In this document: positions 51,339-59,559 of the stretch, piece after piece | Position numbering within the stretch: the first letter of the stretch is position 1 | Layout: each line of letters begins with the position of its first letter | DNA from: Cyclobacteriaceae bacterium | GTDB taxonomy: Bacteria > Bacteroidota > Bacteroidia > Cytophagales > Cyclobacteriaceae | DNA: 64,000 nt | Reading direction: 5' to 3' | NCBI GenBank assembly: GCA_026129485.1 | Contig: JAHCHY010000009.1 | Coordinates: 1 to 64,000 of the forward strand | The notes under the pieces: model-generated | Told to the model about the DNA's origin: nothing | Databases searched by the model: none | What the model saw: only the letters and a program-made list of their open reading frames with translations | Made by a program: the position numbers and the translations under genes

Positions 51339-51938
51339 TTAGCTGTGCCTGGTTTTTAGCACCGTAATAACATCCTTCAGTTCATACCCCTTTGCAGTAA
51401 GCAGCACAAGGTAGTGGTACATCAGGTCGGCAGCTTCACCTAAAAATAAATCCCTGTTGTCGTCTTTCGATTCAATCACCAGCTCGACAGCCTCTTCACC
51501 CACTTTTTGCGCGATTTTATTAATACCGGCATCAAACAACTGATTGGTGTATGATCCGCTTTTAGGATTTGCCTTCCGGTTTTGGATAATGGATTCAAGA
51601 AAGCCTAATTCAATACCTTCATTTTTTTCATCGAAACAGGTATCGGCACCGGTGTGGCAGGATGGACCTTGGGGTTTTACTTTAAACAATAAGGTATCGT
51701 TATCACAATCTAATAATACATCTACCAGTATAAGATAGTTTCCGGATGTTTCTCCTTTTGTCCACAACCGTTGTTTTGTACGACTATAAAACGTTAGCTT
51801 TTTTTCAGCCAGAGTTTTGGCAAGCGCTTCCGGGTTCATAAAGCCAAGCATTAACACTTTATGGGTTTGTGCATCCTGTATCACACAGGGTACTAATCCA
51901 TTTGCTTTTTCGAAATTAACTTCAGAAGTGTCAATCAT
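51339..51938 (-). CDS. hisI: Bifunctional phosphoribosyl-AMP cyclohydrolase/phosphoribosyl-ATP pyrophosphatase
   Basis: A 199-residue HisIE fusion. The HisI half has TFYSRTKQRLWTKGETSGN and the metal site CDNDTLL...GPSCHTGADTCF. The HisE half (from about 115) is the all-helical MazG-like fold with KVGEEAVELVIESKDD. It catalyses steps 2 and 3 of histidine synthesis. Last gene of the operon, 6 bases after hisF. Confidence 0.95.
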   Translation of the reverse strand: MIDTSEVNFEKANGLVPCVIQDAQTHKVLMLGFMNPEALAKTLAEKKLTFYSRTKQRLWTKGETSGNYLILVDVLLDCDNDTLLFKVKPQGPSCHTGADTCFDEKNEGIELGFLESIIQNRKANPKSGSYTNQLFDAGINKIAQKVGEEAVELVIESKDDNRDLFLGEAADLMYHYLVLLTAKGYELKDVITVLKTRHS

Positions 51939-51944
51939 AGTCTT

Positions 51945-52700
51945 TCAGATTCGGATGGGGATACCATTATTTTTAAGGTACGATTTTAGATCGGGAATGG
52001 AAAGCTCGCCAAAATGAAAGAGCGAAGCGGCTAATGCGGCATCGGCTTTTCCTAAAGTAAAGGCTTGTGTAAAATGTTCCCGGTAGCCGGCACCACCGGA
52101 TGCAATTACCGGGATACTTAATAGTTCGTGAAGCTTTGCCAGCGGGTCAATGGCAAAACCCTGTTTGGTACCATCGTGATCCATGCTGGTGAACAGGATT
52201 TCACCGGCTCCACGCTGCTGTCCTTCCCGTGCCCATGTAAATAATTTTTTGTCGGTAGGCCTGCTTCCGCCATGTGTATGAACAGTCCATTGGTTAAAAA
52301 TTTTTCGGGCATCAATGGCCAGTACCACGAACTGCGACCCGAACGCACGGGCCAGCTCATCTATTAACTGCGGGTTGCGTACCGCGGCTGAGTTTATACT
52401 TACCTTATCGGCACCGGCTTCCAGTAAAGGTTCTACATCGGCAACGGAGCTAATACCTCCGCCTACCGTAAACGGGATATTTACATGCCGGGCAATTTCT
52501 TTTACCAACGATACAAACGTTTTTCGATTGTCGGTGGTGGCCGTTATATCCAGGAACACCAGCTCATCAGCGCCTTGTTGCGCATAAGTAGCGCCAAGCT
52601 CAACCGGGTCGCCTGCATCGCGAATGTTTACAAAGTTTATTCCTTTAACGGTGCGGCCGTCTTTAATATCTAAGCAAGGTATAATTCGTTTGGTAAGCAA
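51945..52700 (-). CDS. hisF: Imidazole glycerol phosphate synthase cyclase subunit
   Basis: A 251-residue TIM barrel starting [19 protein letters not shown]; the start is a TTG at 52698-52700, since no ATG fits and HisF always begins this way. [33 protein letters not shown] and ASGGAG are the phosphate-binding and catalytic strands. It pairs with HisH to form IGP and AICAR. It follows hisA by 11 bases. Confidence 0.95.
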
Positions 52701-52711
52701 TGCGAAAGGAA

Positions 52712-53434
52712 TTATGTGTTCTGAAATGCCTTCAATTCTTCTAACTTAAGCTTGCCCTCGTAAATAGCTTTGCCGATAATTACAGCATACACCTTGGCAT
52801 ACTTTAGTTCTTTCAGGTCGTCCATGCTGCTTACTCCGCCACTGGCTACAACTTTTAGCGTGGGAAAACGCTTGATCAGTTTTTTGTACAACCCGATGTT
52901 GGGGCCTTCCAGCATACCATCGGTGGTAATGTCTGTGCAAGCCAGGTATTCCAGGCCTTCTCGCTCAAAACGACTCACCAGATCAAATAACCTGAAGCTG
53001 GTGTCTTCCAGCCAGCCGTTGATGGCTACGGTTTCACCCTTTACATCAGCGCTCAGGATAAAGTTTTCGGTACCATATTGCTTCAGCCAGTTGCTGAATT
53101 TTTCGGGCTCCTTTACGGCAAGGCTACCCACATTGATCTGGTGAACGCCCAGCTCTAACAGTTGCTCTACTTCTTCTTCCGTTTTTACTCCTCCGCCAAA
53201 ATCAACACTCAAAGCGGTCTGCTCCTGTATATCGCGAATTACGTCCCAGTTTACTACATGGCCTTCGCGTGCACCGTCCAGGTCAACCAGGTGTAAGCAA
53301 TCCAGGTCAGCATCCTGGAACTCCAGCGCGACTTCAACCGGGTCTTCGCGGTATATTTTCTTCTTGCCAAAATCACCTTGTGTAAGCCGTACACATTTTC
53401 CATCGATAATATCAATAGCCGGGATGATGCGCAT
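52712..53434 (-). CDS. hisA: ProFAR isomerase
   Basis: A 240-residue TIM barrel, [20 protein letters not shown] at the start, with [37 protein letters not shown] and [12 protein letters not shown]. Catalytic Asp8 lies in the first strand and the second catalytic Asp in TDITTDG. It opens the ribose ring of ProFAR. Normal length; 6 bases after hisH. Confidence 0.96.
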
Positions 53435-53440
53435 AATATG

Positions 53441-54025
53441 TTAAACCTGATTTAAAAATAAGGATAAAATTTTTTCTCCTGCTTCTGCCGATTTTTCGGG
53501 ATGAAACTGCACAGCAAAGAAATTATCTTTTCGCATGGCCGCGCTGAAAGGCTGTGTATATTCGGTAATAGCCGATGTGTACGCATTAACTGGTACATAA
53601 TAGCTATGCACAAAGTACACAAACTGATCGGTTAACGAGGTATCCATCCAGCTTTGTGTAGGTGTTAATGAATTCCAACCCATGTGCGGAACCTTTTCAT
53701 TTTTTTTCGGTTGAAACCGTTTAACAGGCTCATCAAATATGCCGATGCAAGGTGTATCGTTTTCTTCTGAGCAGGCGCAAAGTAATTGCATACCGAGGCA
53801 AATACCCAGTACGGGTTGTTTCAGCTCTTTAATCAACAGGTCAAGCTTCCTGTCTTTCAGGTAATTCATGGTGGTGTTTGCTTCGCCCACACCGGGGAAA
53901 ATAACCTTGTCTGCTTTGCGTATATCTTCCGGATTATCGGTAATCACATAAGAAACGTTTAGCCGCTCAAGCGTGAAGGCTACGGAGCGGATGTTACCTG
54001 CATTGTACTTTATTATGCTAATCAT
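53441..54025 (-). CDS. hisH: Imidazole glycerol phosphate synthase glutaminase subunit
   Basis: A 194-residue class I glutamine amidotransferase. Nucleophile in PVLGICLGMQLLC and the His/Glu pair in FAVQFHPEKSAEAG. IFPGVGEANTTM and VPHMGWNSL are HisH-specific. It feeds ammonia to HisF. It is separated from hisB by a 129-base gap filled with AT-rich repeats. Confidence 0.95.
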   Translation of the reverse strand: MISIIKYNAGNIRSVAFTLERLNVSYVITDNPEDIRKADKVIFPGVGEANTTMNYLKDRKLDLLIKELKQPVLGICLGMQLLCACSEENDTPCIGIFDEPVKRFQPKKNEKVPHMGWNSLTPTQSWMDTSLTDQFVYFVHSYYVPVNAYTSAITEYTQPFSAAMRKDNFFAVQFHPEKSAEAGEKILSLFLNQV

Positions 54026-54039
54026 TGGAAATTACGATC

Positions 54040-54150
54040 TACGAATGATGAATTACGAATTTGAAATCGATTATGAATTATTGACACTTAATTTATTGTG
54101 ATTAGTCCTGGCAGTTTTAATTGTACTCGTAAATCGTCATTCAAAATTCG
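54040..54150. repeat. AT-rich degenerate repeats between hisB and hisH
   Basis: Units such as TACGAATGATGAATTACGAA and AAATCGTCATTC, AAATTCGTCATTT recur in both orientations and can fold back. They break the otherwise tight spacing of the operon. They look like a dispersed intergenic element. Confidence 0.5.
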
Positions 54151-54154
54151 TCAT

Positions 54155-55318
54155 TTAAAGCATTCCCTTCGTACTCGGTAGCTGATCGTTAAACGGATCT
54201 TTGCGTACAGCCATTTTAATGGCTTTCGCGAAAGCTTTAAAGATTGCTTCGATCTTGTGGTGCTCGTTGGCGCCTTCCGCTTTAATGTTCAGGTTGCATT
54301 TGGCTGTATCCGAAAATGATTTGAAGAAATGATAAAACATTTCAGTGGGCATCTCACCGATTTTTTCGCGTTTAAACTCAGCATCCCATACTAACCACGG
54401 CCTGCCGCCAAAATCTATTGCCACTTGTGCTAAGCAATCATCCATCGGTAAGCCTGCCTCTCCGGCAGGCAGGCCTGTCTGCCTCTCCGGCAGGCAAAAG
54501 CCATAACGCTCAATTCCTTTTTTATTACCCAATGCTTGCAGAAATGCATCGCCTAAAGCAAGCGCTGTATCTTCAATAGTGTGGTGCTCATCAATATGCA
54601 AATCTCCTTTTACGGTTACTTCCAGATCGATTAATCCATGCCGGGCTAACTGATCGAGCATGTGATCGAAGAAGCCAAGCCCTGTACTGATGTTCGATTT
54701 TCCGGTTCCGTTTAGATTTACCGAAACAGAAATGTCAGTTTCTTTAGTAGTTCTGCGTATGGTGGCTTTACGTGATGGGATTACCGTTTCATAAATTTCT
54801 TTCCAGCTTGTGGTAATCAACGCGCAATGTTCATTAAGTCCTTTTTCAGCTAATGCACCTGCAAGCGAGCCGTCATTTACCAGGATGCCTTTTGCTCCAA
54901 GATTTTTAGCCAGCTCAACATCCGTAAGCCGGTCGCCAATCACGAACGAGCTTGCCAGGTCATATTCGCTACTGAAATAGGCGGTAAGCATGCCCGTTCC
55001 GGGCTTACGCGTAGGTTTGTTTTCGTGTGGAAAAGATTTATCTACATGAATTGCTGAGAACCGGATACCTTCTCCGGCTAATGTATCGGCTACTAAGTTT
55101 TGCACCGGCCAGAAAGTTTCTTCCGAAAAGGAAACTGTACCCAATCCATCCTGGTTGGTAACCATTACCAGCTCGTAATCGGTTTCGCGGGCAATGCGCC
55201 CCAGCCACGTAAACACACCGGGTATAAATTTTACTTTGCTCAAGCTGTCAATCTGCGGATCGTCAGCCGGCTCAACAATCAGCGTGCCATCCCGATCAAT
55301 AAATAAAACCTTCTTCAT
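54155..55318 (-). CDS. hisB: Bifunctional histidinol-phosphatase/imidazoleglycerol-phosphate dehydratase
   Basis: A 387-residue fusion. The N-terminal HAD phosphatase has [11 protein letters not shown] (Asp8, Asp10), MVTNQDGLG and [14 protein letters not shown]. The C-terminal dehydratase has [28 protein letters not shown] and [15 protein letters not shown], the paired metal-binding His motifs. Steps 6 and 8 of the pathway. Oddity: residues 278-291 are a 14-residue insert between FCLP and MDDCLAQ, encoded by a palindromic repeat; other IGPD enzymes I know run directly from GFxLP to MDE. It overlaps hisC by ATGA (55315-55318). Confidence 0.94.
54446..54495 (-). repeat. Palindromic element inserted in frame in hisB
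   Basis: Two near-identical 19-bp hairpins, GCCTGCCTCTCCGGCAGGC (54452-54470) and the same with one change (54477-54495), flank AGGCCT. Stems are GCCTGCC/GGCAGGC. The inserted length is 42 bp, so the frame is kept. Confidence 0.85.
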
Positions 55319-56346
55319 AAAGCGCTAAGTTCGCGTATTAATATTTGATTTTCTTCCGTTGTTCCCACCGTTATGCGTAAGCAATTATCACAAAGCATTA
55401 CAGCCGTCCGATCGCGTACGATCACACCGCGTTTTACTAATTTTTGGTAGATATCCTTCGCATCGGTAACACGAGTTAACAGAAAATTGGCATCGGAGGG
55501 AAATACTTCCATTACCAGCGGTAGATTTTTTAGCTGGCCTTTTAGCTTTTCACGTTCTGCAATAATTTCTTTCACCCATTCCTTTTTGCGGGTTTCGTTG
55601 TTGAGCGCATCCAGCGCTACCTGTTGCGATAAAATGCTGATATTATAAGGAGGCTTGATTTTGTTAAGCACCTGAATGATTTCAGGTGATGCAAAACAAA
55701 TCCCTAACCGGATGCCTGCCAGTCCCCAAGCTTTTGATAAAGTCTGTAACACAACGAGGTTTGGATATTGATTCAGCAAAGGCACGAAGCCGGGTTGATT
55801 GGTAAAATCGATGTACGCTTCATCCACTACAACAAGCCCGGTAAATTCTTTCAATATTGTTTCTGCTATCTCGCGCGTAAGCAGGTTACCGGAAGGATTG
55901 TTCGGACTGCATAGAAAAATCAGTTTGGTATTGCTGTCGCAAATCTGAAGTATAGCTTTCGCATCCAGATCAAACTTGCTGGTGAGCTTTACGGATTTTA
56001 TTGCCACGTCATTAACATCGGCACTTACGGCATACATACCGTATGTAGGCTGCGGAATCAACACGTTATCAACACCCGGTTCGCAAAACGCACGGAACAA
56101 CAGGTCAATAGCTTCATCGCTTCCGTTTCCCAGGAAGATGCGTGATGGATCAACTTGCTTAATCTCACCTAATTTTTCCTTTACGGCTGCCTGGTGCGGA
56201 TCAGGATACCGATTGTAACCCGTAGAGTATGGGTTCTCGTTTGCATCGAGGTAAACAGAAGCCTGCCCCTGAAACTCATCGCGCGCGGATGAATACGGCT
56301 TTAGTTCTAAGACATTTTTTCTGACCAGCTTGTGTAAATCAAACAT
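55315..56346 (-). CDS. hisC: Histidinol-phosphate aminotransferase
   Basis: 343 residues from the ATG at 56344-56346 ([21 protein letters not shown]); an upstream extension of 12 residues is not family-like. Fold-type I PLP enzyme: [48 protein letters not shown] and the PLP-lysine region [16 protein letters not shown]. It transfers the amino group to imidazole-acetol phosphate. Its stop overlaps the hisB start. Confidence 0.95.
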
Positions 56347-56361
56347 GTTTATTAGTTTCTT

Positions 56362-56440
56362 TATCGAGTTGGCAATAAGCAAATGGCAGTATGCAATAAG
56401 TTTTGGCTATCTATTGTCAACTGCTTTTTGCCTACTGCTA
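56362..56440 (-). repeat. Repeat spanning the hisD 3' end and hisD-hisC gap
   Basis: GTTGGCAATAAGCAAATGGC and, in the opposite orientation, GCAGTAGGCAAAAAGCAGTT share GCAGT/GGCAA/GTTGaCAATA blocks and can fold back. The element runs into hisD and encodes its last residues, SSRQKAVDNR. Confidence 0.5.
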
Positions 56441-57720
56441 CTATTTTCATCTAACCTGACCCTTACAGCCAGGGCGTGCGCTTTTAATTGTTCAGCTTCG
56501 GCCATAGTTTCTACCACCGGGCCAATAACCTGTAAGCCTGCTTTTGTTATTTCCTGCACCGTAATGTACTTGGTAAAGCTTTCCAATGCCACTCCGCCAA
56601 AGGCATGGGCGAAACCATTGGTTGGTAAAGTATGATTAGTGCCCGATGCATAATCGCCTGCGGCTTCAGGTGTGTAAGCTCCCAAGAAAATGGAACCGGC
56701 ATTTACAATTTGTTGCTCCAGTGCTGTATTGTTTTGGGTGTTGATAATTAAATGCTCGGGAGCGTATGCATTCACAAAACCGATTAAGGTTTGCTCATCG
56801 CTAAAGCGGATGGATAAACTGTTGTTCAGCGCTTCGATAGCGATGTCTTTGCGAGGCAGGGTGGCAAGTTGTTTTTCCAGTTCCTGTTCAACAGCCGTAA
56901 GAATTTTACCGGATGTAGATACCAGCACTACCTGGCTATCCACACCATGTTCGGCCTGCGATAATAAATCGGCTGCTATGTATGCCGGGTTTGCGACCTC
57001 ATCGGCAATAATCAGGACTTCGGATGGGCCGGCCGGCATATCGATAGCAATACCCTGCTGACTTACAATTTGCTTGGCTTTGGTTACGTATTGGTTTCCC
57101 GGACCGAATATTTTATTCACGGGTGGAATAGATTCAGTGCCATAAGCCATGGCGGCTATGGCCTGCGCACCACCGGCTTTAAATATTTTAGTGATGCCCG
57201 TTAGCTGTGCAGCAAACAAGATGGCTGGGTTGATCTCACCGTTTTTGCCAGGCGGTGTGCAAAGTACTATTTCGGTGCAGCCGGCTAACCGCGCAGGTAT
57301 ACCTAACATCAATACGGTAGAAAATAACGGGGCGGTTCCACCCGGAATATAGATGCCTACTTTTTGGATAGGTGTAGCCTTTCGCCAGCAGGTAACGCCC
57401 GGCATGGTTTCAATTTTTTCCACGCTTCGCTTTTGTGCCGCATGGAATACTTCTATGTTTTTGGCAGCAGTGATGATAGCCGTTTTCAGATCAGCCGGCA
57501 GCTTTTGCACCGCTTCAGAAACTTCTTCAGGAGTTACGACTGGTTTAGCTAACACAACGCCATCAAACTGTTTTGTAAATTCTGTTAAAGCGGCATCGCC
57601 TGATTTGCGTACACGTTCGAGTATATTGTTCACGCTTCCTTCGAGGAAGTCAAGCTCTAATTGCGGCCTTTTGCACAGCTCCGGCCATTCACTTGCAGAC
57701 GGGTTGATGATTTGCTTCAT
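56407..57720 (-). CDS. hisD: Histidinol dehydrogenase
   Basis: 437 residues from the ATG at 57718-57720 (KQIINPS). Family motifs: GVTCWRKATPIQKVGIYIPGG, GGAQAIAAMAYGT, KIFGPGNQYVTKAKQ, DMPAGPSEVLIIAD, DLLSQAEHGVDSQ, PEHLIINT and the end region FAHAFGGVALESFTKYITVQE. It oxidises histidinol to histidine in two NAD+-linked steps. Family members normally end soon after AVRVRLD; here about ten extra residues come from a repeat element. It starts 5 bases after hisG. Confidence 0.95.
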   Translation of the reverse strand: MKQIINPSASEWPELCKRPQLELDFLEGSVNNILERVRKSGDAALTEFTKQFDGVVLAKPVVTPEEVSEAVQKLPADLKTAIITAAKNIEVFHAAQKRSVEKIETMPGVTCWRKATPIQKVGIYIPGGTAPLFSTVLMLGIPARLAGCTEIVLCTPPGKNGEINPAILFAAQLTGITKIFKAGGAQAIAAMAYGTESIPPVNKIFGPGNQYVTKAKQIVSQQGIAIDMPAGPSEVLIIADEVANPAYIAADLLSQAEHGVDSQVVLVSTSGKILTAVEQELEKQLATLPRKDIAIEALNNSLSIRFSDEQTLIGFVNAYAPEHLIINTQNNTALEQQIVNAGSIFLGAYTPEAAGDYASGTNHTLPTNGFAHAFGGVALESFTKYITVQEITKAGLQVIGPVVETMAEAEQLKAHALAVRVRLDENSSSRQKAVDNR

Positions 57721-57725
57721 GGTTT

Positions 57726-58583
57726 TCAAAGAATCATTTTTTCGATCGGGATCACTAAGATACCTTCGGCACCAAATGATTTCAGCAAACCGATCTTTTC
57801 CCAGAAATCATTTTCATTCACAACAGAGTGTAACGATGACCAGCCTTCGCGCCCAAGCGGCAGTATGGTAGGGCTTTTCATGCCCGGAATAACTTCGGTT
57901 ATTTTGGGAATGGCCTCGTTAGGGCAGTTGAGCAGAATATACTTGTTGTTTTTGGCCGACTGCACCGCCTGAATACGAAAGAGTAACTGCTCCAGTATGG
58001 CTTGCTTTCCGGCTTCCAGTTCAGGTGTGGCGATCAATACAGCTTCCGATTGCATCACGATCTCAACTTCTTTCAGCCCGTTGCTTAACAAAGTGCTGCC
58101 AGTGCTTACGATATCACAAATCGCATCAGCCAGGCCTATGCCGGGCGCTATTTCTACCGAGCCGCTGATCTCGTGTATGCCAGCCTTAATGTTATGCTTT
58201 TGCAGAAACTGTTTTACAAGGGTAGGGTAGGTGGTAGCAATATTTTTTCCTTGCAGGTAGGCTACACCGGTATATTCTTCTGCCCGCGGAATGGCTATGG
58301 AAAGCCGGCACCGGGCGAAGTCAAGCCGTCTGATAAGCTGGTTTTGCTTCTGCTTTTCAACCCAGATGTTTTCGCCTACAATACCGGCATCGGCCACACG
58401 GTCTTCCACGTATTGAGGAATATCGTCATCGCGAAGAAAAAGCAGCTCTACGGGAAAATTGCGTACCTGTGCTTTTAGCTGATCGCGACCGTTGCTGAAC
58501 TGGAGCCCGCTTTCCTTTAAAAGCTTAAGCGAGTCTTCCTGCAGGCGCCCGGATTTCTGAATGGCAATTCGTAGCTGGTTCAT
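57726..58583 (-). CDS. hisG: ATP phosphoribosyltransferase (long form)
   Basis: A 285-residue long-form HisG with catalytic domains (LRIAIQKSGRLQEDSLKLLKE, GIVGENIWVE, GLADAICDIVSTGSTLLSNGL with the PRPP-binding signature) and a C-terminal ACT-like regulatory domain (about 210-285, KYILLNCPNEAIPKITEVIPG, GLLKSFGAEGILVIPIEKMI) that gives feedback inhibition by histidine. First enzyme of the pathway and first gene of the operon, preceded by the attenuator leader. HisZ is not needed by this form. Confidence 0.96.
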   Translation of the reverse strand: MNQLRIAIQKSGRLQEDSLKLLKESGLQFSNGRDQLKAQVRNFPVELLFLRDDDIPQYVEDRVADAGIVGENIWVEKQKQNQLIRRLDFARCRLSIAIPRAEEYTGVAYLQGKNIATTYPTLVKQFLQKHNIKAGIHEISGSVEIAPGIGLADAICDIVSTGSTLLSNGLKEVEIVMQSEAVLIATPELEAGKQAILEQLLFRIQAVQSAKNNKYILLNCPNEAIPKITEVIPGMKSPTILPLGREGWSSLHSVVNENDFWEKIGLLKSFGAEGILVIPIEKMIL

Positions 58584-58599
58584 AGTAGTTATCAGTTCT

Positions 58600-58637
58600 A
58601 AAACAAAAAAGGCTTACCGTATGTGGGCAAGCCTTTT
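58600..58637 (-). terminator. Attenuator terminator of the his operon
   Basis: Reading the minus strand, AAAAGGCTTGCC (58637-58626) pairs with GGTAAGCCTTTT (58618-58607) with one G-U and a 7-base loop, then a T-rich run (TTTTTTGTTTT). It sits 17-54 bases before the hisG start. Confidence 0.85.
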
Positions 58638-58657
58638 GAAATCCTGTTATCGTTTTA

Positions 58658-58729
58658 TCAAAACAAAGCTATGCCACCTGTGCGGTTTACATGATGGTGG
58701 TGGCCGTGTATGCTTTGTGCGTTTGTCAT
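58658..58729 (-). CDS. Histidine operon leader peptide
   Basis: A 23-codon ORF on the minus strand: ATG at 58729-58727, TGA at 58660-58658. The peptide begins MTNAQSIHGHHHH and continues VNRTGGIALF. Five of the residues are His (8, 10-13), a density far above chance. Just downstream is a terminator whose left arm can instead pair with codons 19-22 (GGCATAGCTTT, 58675-58665). When His-tRNA is scarce a ribosome stalled at codons 8-13 leaves that stretch free and the antiterminator forms; when it runs to the stop it masks the stretch and the terminator forms. Not previously listed because of its length. Confidence 0.85.
   Translation of the reverse strand: MTNAQSIHGHHHHVNRTGGIALF
58665..58675 (-). 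promoter_or_regulatory. Antiterminator arm of the his attenuator
   Basis: GGCATAGCTTT can pair with AAAGGCTTGCC of the terminator stem: ten pairs (one G-U) with a single bulged U. It lies 15 bases after the last His codon, within reach of release when a ribosome stalls there. Confidence 0.7.
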
Positions 58730-58767
58730 AATTTAGGATTCAAAAGAACAGAATAGTTTCAAGATGT

Positions 58768-58775
58768 CAAAATTA
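58768..58775 (-). promoter_or_regulatory. Candidate -7 element of the his operon
   Basis: The minus strand reads TAATTTTG, fitting TAnnTTTG, 38 bases before the leader ATG. The -33 TTG is not clear. Confidence 0.4.
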
Positions 58776-58818
58776 TATCCCAAAAAAAGAGACAGGCTAA
58801 CGGGTGTTTGAATTGCAC

Positions 58819-59559
58819 CTATCTCTTCCCCCCAAGCCCCAACCCTAAATACCCGATCAGCGAAAGCACAAACCCGATAAAGCCAAATATAAAAATGAGG
58901 ATGTAGCGTTCCGAGACCAGGTTGATCAATACATCGTTGGGGTTATCGGGGTTTACGAATAGTTCAACCTGCTCGCCTATCTCTACAGCCGGTGGGTTAG
59001 AGTAGGTAGAACCTTCAAAGATCATTTCCTTTCCCTGCCATGTGTACGACACCACCGGGGCGGCAGTGTTACCGCTTCCCCTTCCGTAGCTCAGGTCAAC
59101 CACGGTGCCGGTTACAGTTTCGGCTTTGCTGGTAAAGATGTAATCCGCGCCAAGCCAGTACATGCTTAACAAGATGAAAATGGTGCCCACCGCGGCAAGT
59201 ACGAAGAAAACAATTCCCGGTGCATCTTGAGGTAATGCAAAACCTTGCCGGGAAGCTACGGTATCAACCAATCTTTTAGCTTGCCTGAGCGAAATCCGGT
59301 ATTCGTCCATAACCATTTTAATAGCCTGTATCTTGTTATTGGACCGAAGCAGGTCTTCGACACGCGCCCGCATAACGGCCGGTGATGCTGTTGATGGTTG
59401 TGCTCCAGGCCGGGTAGCTTCACCCGCCAGGTAGGCTACCCAGTCTTTCGCATCTGCCAGGGAAAGTTGGTGTTGGTTACACAAAAACTGAATAGCGGCA
59501 ATTTTTTGCCCGCTTTGCAGGAGTTCTTTTACTTTTGCCTGGGATTGAGAAGGAAGCAT
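58819..59559 (-). CDS. DUF3592 membrane protein with two L7/L12-like helical repeats
   Basis: 246 residues. Two N-terminal helix pairs, KVKELLQSGQKIAAIQFLCNQ/LSLADAKDWV (9-41) and VEDLLRSNNKIQAIKMVMDE/ISLRQAKRLVD (67-99), resemble the C-terminal fold of ribosomal protein L7/L12 (KIxAIKxVREx...LKEAKxxVE). Then a membrane helix (about 113-135), a DUF3592 beta domain (TVTGTVVDLSYGRG, APVVSYTWQGKE, VELFVNPDNPNDVLI) and a second membrane helix (about 218-240). Function unknown. It ends about 90 bases before the his leader. Confidence 0.75.
   Translation of the reverse strand: MLPSQSQAKVKELLQSGQKIAAIQFLCNQHQLSLADAKDWVAYLAGEATRPGAQPSTASPAVMRARVEDLLRSNNKIQAIKMVMDEYRISLRQAKRLVDTVASRQGFALPQDAPGIVFFVLAAVGTIFILLSMYWLGADYIFTSKAETVTGTVVDLSYGRGSGNTAAPVVSYTWQGKEMIFEGSTYSNPPAVEIGEQVELFVNPDNPNDVLINLVSERYILIFIFGFIGFVLSLIGYLGLGLGGKR

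Follow-up and report, generated by a model that had tools for sequence, protein, structure and literature searches.

The question raised by this locus is what role is played by a short histidine-rich reading frame and the hairpin behind it, both located in front of hisG in a member of the Bacteroidota. The window (the whole stretch of 64,000 nucleotides that was analysed) contains the complete hisGDCBHAFIE operon on its minus strand, 3' of this element. The first structural gene is hisG (ATP phosphoribosyltransferase, TIGR00070, 57726..58583), followed by hisD, hisC, a bifunctional hisB, hisH, hisA, hisF and hisIE (51339..57729), and each gene exceeds the curated cut-off of its family model. 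The nearest named relatives by HisG (92-93%) are MAGs labelled Cytophagales, Cyclobacteriaceae, Flammeovirgaceae or Bacteroidetes.

The leader frame, MTNAQSIHGHHHHVNRTGGIALF plus a stop codon, is located at 58658..58729 on the minus strand, is kept in relatives and comprises 23 codons closed by TGA (58660-58658). As read from the sequence it contains five His, four of them consecutive, at position 8 (58706-58708) and at positions 10-13 (58691..58702), the latter being the putative control codons. The order on this strand is leader frame, 12-pair hairpin with a U-run (58637-58605) and hisG, with 74 nt between the leader stop and hisG. The locus presents a short leader with tandem His codons upstream of the first his biosynthetic gene, and an intrinsic terminator between the two. 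In the centroid fold the terminator stem pairs 58637-58626 with 58618-58607 and the U-run begins at 58610.

All the RNA segments lie on the minus strand. Segment 3, the left arm of the terminator, spans 58626..58637 (fold and alignment) and segment 4, the right arm with the U-run, spans 58605..58618 (sequence, fold and alignment). Segment 2 (GGUGGCAUAGCUUUGU, 58663..58678) is the partner either of segment 1, in a pause helix, or of segment 3, in an antiterminator. In the antiterminator GGCA(U)AGCUUU (58675-58665) faces AAAGGCUUGCC (58635-58626) with ten pairs and one bulged U by hand count; this helix shares an arm with the terminator and the two are mutually exclusive. The original prediction, made from the letters alone, was exact for the reading frame and its histidines, and its assignment of the downstream gene to hisG is borne out by the family model, as is the entire operon. 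Also confirmed were the terminator with a T-run that it placed behind the leader and the competing partner of the left arm at 58665-58675. It did not include a third helix, 1:2, a pause or protector helix within the leader frame. Here the outer part of segment 1 (ACAAAGC, 58712..58718) pairs with 58663-58669 and the inner part (GCCACC, 58699..58704) with 58673-58678, as drawn from the predicted fold and from 42 relatives. The 130-nt leader as a whole folds at -34.5 kcal/mol (z -3.04), a value equalled or bettered by 1 of 200 dinucleotide shuffles.

This layout fits classical attenuation. Given the usual ribosome footprint, a ribosome halted on His10-His13 would occupy segment 1 and stop short of segment 2, and one that has reached the stop codon would sit over segment 2 with segment 3 still exposed. 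The element very probably controls the his operon as a transcription attenuator of the ribosome-mediated type. RNA polymerase would set off only a few bases upstream of the leader ATG, with a ribosome loading on the leader immediately. With plentiful charged tRNA-His the ribosome would pass the four His codons and arrive at the stop codon, where it would cover segment 2; the 3:4 terminator would then form and transcription would end before hisG. When charged tRNA-His is scarce the ribosome would wait on the His codons and cover segment 1, segment 2 would be free to form 2:3, the terminator would be blocked and the operon would be transcribed. Where translation fails altogether 1:2 would form and the terminator would win again. 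Translation of the leader, pausing, termination and the response to histidine are what we infer from the arrangement of these parts.

A run of four His is not rare in itself, since four consecutive His codons occur 50 times on both strands of the 4.08-Mb genome, compared with 18 occurrences of the reversed control pattern. Thirty of the 50 runs were fetched (the window's own excluded); 10 of them are in an ORF of at most 70 codons, and two of these 10 have a terminator-like hairpin behind (-9.6 and -10.1 kcal/mol). With a short ORF plus hairpin at two of 30 fetched runs, the leader parts alone could arise by chance. These counts are what can be said for a plain constitutive terminator, or a buffer of the 5' end, preceded by a His-rich ORF that has no regulatory role. 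The argument against chance is not the run itself, it is the position before hisG and the conservation. Among 197 distinct regions upstream of hisG, each 200 nt or longer, 125 contain a short ORF with at least four His in six residues; the next commonest residues (Leu, Ser) reach 15 at the same level and 10 shuffled sets gave 0 each. At the looser level of three in six, His was identified in 140 of the 197, but Leu in 93 and the shuffles in 5-15, so this level is informative only jointly with the terminator.

The close relatives comprise 48 distinct upstream regions with a HisG identity of at least 74%, mostly from one genus, so that these sequences are not independent. Aligning them as a check on the original prediction found the His run kept in 47 of the 48 (at least three His in six residues), and in 46 at the level of at least four in six. 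The terminator, by our own rule, was identified in all 48 compared with 5 of 144 shuffles. The 48 leaders contain 2 to 8 His each, encoded by 131 CAT and 100 CAC, a mix that fits selection for the His content of the peptide. Counting against a plain constitutive terminator, which we consider very improbable, are the run of at least four His in 46 of 48 relatives, the use of both synonyms and the pairing of 2:3 and 1:2 well above slid controls described below. The 48th relative, L020 (L020:1340-1461), presents the leader MKYTQNIFRQHHATSLLGGFMF with two His only (HH) and keeps the terminator and segment 2; it is a natural test of the number of His codons needed.

The conservation of the ORF would also suit a functional His-rich metal-binding microprotein, with HGHHHH as a conceivable set of metal ligands. 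This is the least probable explanation, to the point of being nearly negligible: the codons conserved beyond the His run (QN, LF or MF) coincide with the paired segments, the number of His varies between leaders as given above, and 94 of 149 more distant regions carry a His-rich leader whose sequence is quite unlike this one, in a survey that began from hisG and is blind to similar peptides elsewhere.

The pairing expected of a ribosome-mediated attenuator was followed in alignment A1, which comprises 42 of the 48 relatives; L022, L027, L032, L076, L079 and L087 were omitted, their leaders ending differently. RNAalifold on these 42 sequences recovered the terminator alone and neither 1:2 nor 2:3, as expected for helices that compete, and the three helices were for this reason counted separately. 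Helix 1:2 has 86.9% of its cells paired (slid controls 30-45%) and helix 3:4 has 100% (slid controls 21-73%). Helix 2:3 has 80.5% (slid controls 30-54%), a fixed-column count that shows the pairs of the window inexactly since its own 2:3 needs a bulge. The covariation score was reached by column shuffles of A1 in 11 of 500 cases for 1:2, 1 of 500 for 2:3 and 0 of 500 for 3:4. Pairs changed on both sides are in no excess in 1:2 (reached by 148 of 500 shuffles) or in 2:3 (361 of 500); on this measure the terminator is the only helix to stand out. The support for 1:2 and 2:3 consists of paired cells and few changes. The alternative pairing is kept in the relatives together with some compensating changes, and with the His run it supports the original reading of these parts as those of ribosome-mediated attenuation.

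The anatomy, its conservation and the compensating changes are direct observations. In L063 and L008 the segment 2 base common to both partners changes from C to U and segment 3 changes from G to A, and a standard pair survives in each of the three helices (G-U in 1:2, U-A in 2:3 and A-U in 3:4). The same letters of segments 3 and 4 were identified in L009, L012 and L016, whose own folds keep 1:2, 2:3 and 3:4. In these three, segment 2 is shifted by one base relative to A1 and the A26 belongs to a His codon, so compensation in all three helices at one column comes from L063 and L008 only. L034 is a counter-example, where the terminator pair is kept by a double change and the matching 2:3 pair is lost.

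Folding energies were compared with shuffles in 51 of 56 distinct loci with a HisG identity of at least 65%, giving a mean z of -2.26 for 2:3 and -2.35 for 1:2, and a mean terminator energy of -19.7 kcal/mol. L020, L057, L107, L114 and L116 were dropped, L057 for a TTG start that an ATG-only filter did not admit, and the 51 include two loci of another kind (L099 and L154, type B, described below). Weak values (z above -1) were obtained for 2:3 in 9 of the 51 loci and for 1:2 in 7, the latter being L022, L027, L032, L076, L079 and the two loci of the other type. Helix 1:2 was not seen in L027, L032, L076 and L079 (z 0.2 to 1.2), whose ORFs end early, so that little of segment 2 entered the 1:2 test.

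A real switch could also respond to another signal, such as a protein, Rho or the translation of hisG by reinitiation, and not to stalling on His codons. As far as the available text of the sources goes, a DnaA-dependent attenuation of the his operon has been reported in E. coli (PMC10989985) and a reinitiation hypothesis has been put forward for leader genes (PMC4833913). Such a signal would leave the His specificity unexplained, the strong intrinsic terminator is found in all 48 close relatives, and the leader stop lies 74 nt before hisG compared with a distance peak of 11-14 bp given for Bacteroidetes in the accessible part of PMC4833913; we consider this explanation very improbable.

The predicted promoter is of the Bacteroidota type, whose consensus is TAnnTTTG and whose -7 box occupies -12 to -5 (PMC9723704, in its accessible part). 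On the minus strand of the window a predicted -33 element, TTTG, is located at 58768..58771 and a predicted -7 element, TTCTTTTG, at 58741..58748; the position of the latter puts the predicted transcription start at 58736, about 7 nt before the leader ATG. The rule applied (TTTG, CTTG or TTGG, then 19 to 21 nt, then TnnnTTnG) was satisfied in 46 of the 48 close relatives, compared with 22 of 2400 shuffles, the exceptions being L034 and L078. The distance from the predicted -7 box to the leader ATG is 11 nt in the window, with a median of 10 (6-16) in these 46 relatives, which puts the predicted 5' UTR at 7 nt for the window and at 2-12 nt for the relatives when the box is taken as -12 to -5. 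With the ATG 6-16 nt behind the predicted box, translation of the leader probably begins almost at the 5' end of the transcript. In the available text of two transcriptome sources, about 3.7% of the 5' UTRs of Bacteroides thetaiotaomicron fall below 10 nt in length (PMC7366714), and in Flavobacterium psychrophilum 5.5% of mRNAs with a mapped start are leaderless, the median 5' UTR being 24 (PMC9723704). The predicted 5' UTR of the window leaves no room for a usual Shine-Dalgarno site. In these bacteria Shine-Dalgarno sites are hardly used, and the locus makes the loading of ribosomes on an attenuator leader testable under such conditions.

One of the closest known systems is the enterobacterial hisL (RF00514 His_leader), formed by a leader with His codons, the helices 1:2, 2:3 and 3:4 and a terminator with a U-run, located before hisG. 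The element of the window shares the run of His codons in a short leader, the three alternative helices, the U-run terminator and the position before hisG. It differs from hisL in its Bacteroidota promoter, in the predicted distance of about 7 nt from the 5' end to the leader and in the lack of an Rfam His_leader match. No Rfam match was obtained in the window at the gathering threshold, and RF00514 was not among the Rfam matches up to E 10 in 58450-58850, nor did 20 relatives have a match at the gathering threshold. The T-box covariance model likewise had no match in the window, nor among matches up to E 10 in 58450-58850. The best weak Rfam match in the leader was Phe_leader (17.8 bits, cut-off 55), rejected as chance.

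Within the phylum, a 2021 study of F. psychrophilum presents, in its accessible part, strong indications that amino-acid operons are preceded by leader-peptide attenuators, and names a structured element at the 5' end of hisG that is conserved in other Flavobacteriaceae and has no Rfam hits (PMC9723704). The attenuation idea is therefore not new for the phylum. That element coincides with the present one in phylum, gene and lack of an Rfam hit; it is only named in the available text of the study (PMC9723704), whereas here the sequence, the three helices and their conservation are given, in another lineage. No description of this leader in Cytophagales was found in the literature searched, a scope that mostly left out subscription journals. 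The abstract of Vitreschak et al. 2004 (FEMS Microbiol Lett 234:357) reportedly mentions candidate attenuators in Bacteroidetes/Chlorobi, which, if right, lowers the novelty further.

His leader attenuators have also been described in Firmicutes, namely in the Bacillus cereus group, Eubacteriales and Erysipelotrichales (PMC9413887, PMC2965389). Judged from the accessible parts of these sources, they resemble the present element in their three to five consecutive His codons and in having a terminator and an antiterminator, and differ in belonging to another phylum where his T-boxes are the commoner RNA control (158 in 129 genomes). The trpL of Sinorhizobium meliloti (PMC7298713, available text) is an attenuator leader ORF at the 5' end of its transcript, a feature predicted here, although it concerns tryptophan and Alphaproteobacteria, and the near-leaderless start of the present leader is a prediction. 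The mechanism appears to be that of the textbook his attenuator, and this version belongs to a bacterial branch in which such control has seldom been examined. Such an attenuator, with three competing helices kept, is hereby placed in a phylum with only brief mentions in the literature searched, and the relatives are enough for a covariance model that is missing from Rfam.

Other genes of the same genome were inspected for leaders. A trpE-type gene (L257, G000:C13) has the WWW leader MSQLVHTAWWWHKSKFDW upstream, followed by a strong hairpin (-19.5 kcal/mol), likely a Trp attenuator. A prephenate dehydratase gene (L256, G000:C12) has the leader MNANRFYFFWYFYQSPAGLERGSVC, in which Phe, Tyr and Trp codons are mixed, and a hairpin with a U-run (-14.2 kcal/mol) behind this aromatic-rich leader, likely an aromatic attenuator. 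No leader was recognised upstream of ilvD (L258) and of one homoserine dehydrogenase gene (L260), neither of which is shown to head an operon. The first two genes count for the attenuation reading and the last two against it.

Leaders of this kind occur in Cytophagales and in many bacteria of the phylum outside that order. The more distant sample comprises 149 Bacteroidota regions and is not random, being formed by loci from searches (the best-scoring 30 in two of the searches) and 80 hand-picked ones, about one per genus or family. The 94 regions with a His-rich leader at three in six become 93 by a slightly different rule, and at four in six the two rules give 78 and 79. A terminator by our rule follows 50 of the 94 leaders (11 of 282 shuffles) and is absent in 44. 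The other 55 regions have no leader at three in six, and 10 of them have a hairpin match. From one group of the phylum to another the leaders and terminators diverge strongly in sequence, and those of the other families surveyed differ from the one in the window. Long His-rich leaders precede hisG in L125 (ten His), L131, L133, L139 and L225, with 4-5 nt between the predicted -7 box and the leader ATG, so a leaderless start is probable in these loci. A strong terminator was searched for behind these five leaders and none was found.

A second kind of leader (type B) was identified upstream of hisG in further genera of the family and further families of the order, in loci that include L109, L113, L147-L150, L089, L091, L096, L100, L102 and L164. 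The type B peptide closes with HHxHHSS* or a similar ending; directly after the last CATCAT begins a conserved hairpin (for example ATTCCTC / GAGGAAT), with the leader stop codon in or near its loop. ACATATCGCCC then follows the hairpin in 5 of 19 hand-listed loci and a near variant in 9 more (14 of 19). On alignment A2, formed by 18 of these 19 loci (L154 omitted), the hairpin is 87.3% paired compared with 47-66% in slid controls. The terminator search behind type B leaders gave no strong terminator with a U-run, except that in L148 and L150 the hairpin itself has a short T-run behind it (-9.3 and -9.1 kcal/mol) and may act as a weak terminator.

The covariance model built for type B, R1, was run on 241 genomes of the order; counting matches at E 5e-6 or better it hits 37 of them, and in all of the 30 that were fetched hisG follows on the same strand at a distance of 55-240 nt. 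Four weaker matches outside his loci were rejected as chance, each being within a long reading frame; these frames presumably resemble isoleucyl-tRNA synthetase.

A joint reading of both kinds can be offered tentatively, as a possibility that we hold somewhat doubtful. Attenuation by His leaders would be old in the Bacteroidota and would work without Shine-Dalgarno sites, since the leader ORF often starts at the 5' end or a few bases from it. The terminator would have been exchanged at least once within the phylum for the type B stop-codon hairpin, mostly without a recognisable U-run, which would be a mechanistically different kind of his attenuator not yet described. The locus also makes testable what replaces the terminator in related genera and families. 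In another family of the phylum (L186, L190 and L204) CATCAT runs into a CGCC...GGCGAT hairpin before hisG, and in L190 and L204 this hairpin contains the leader stop codon, a layout like that of type B with another sequence.
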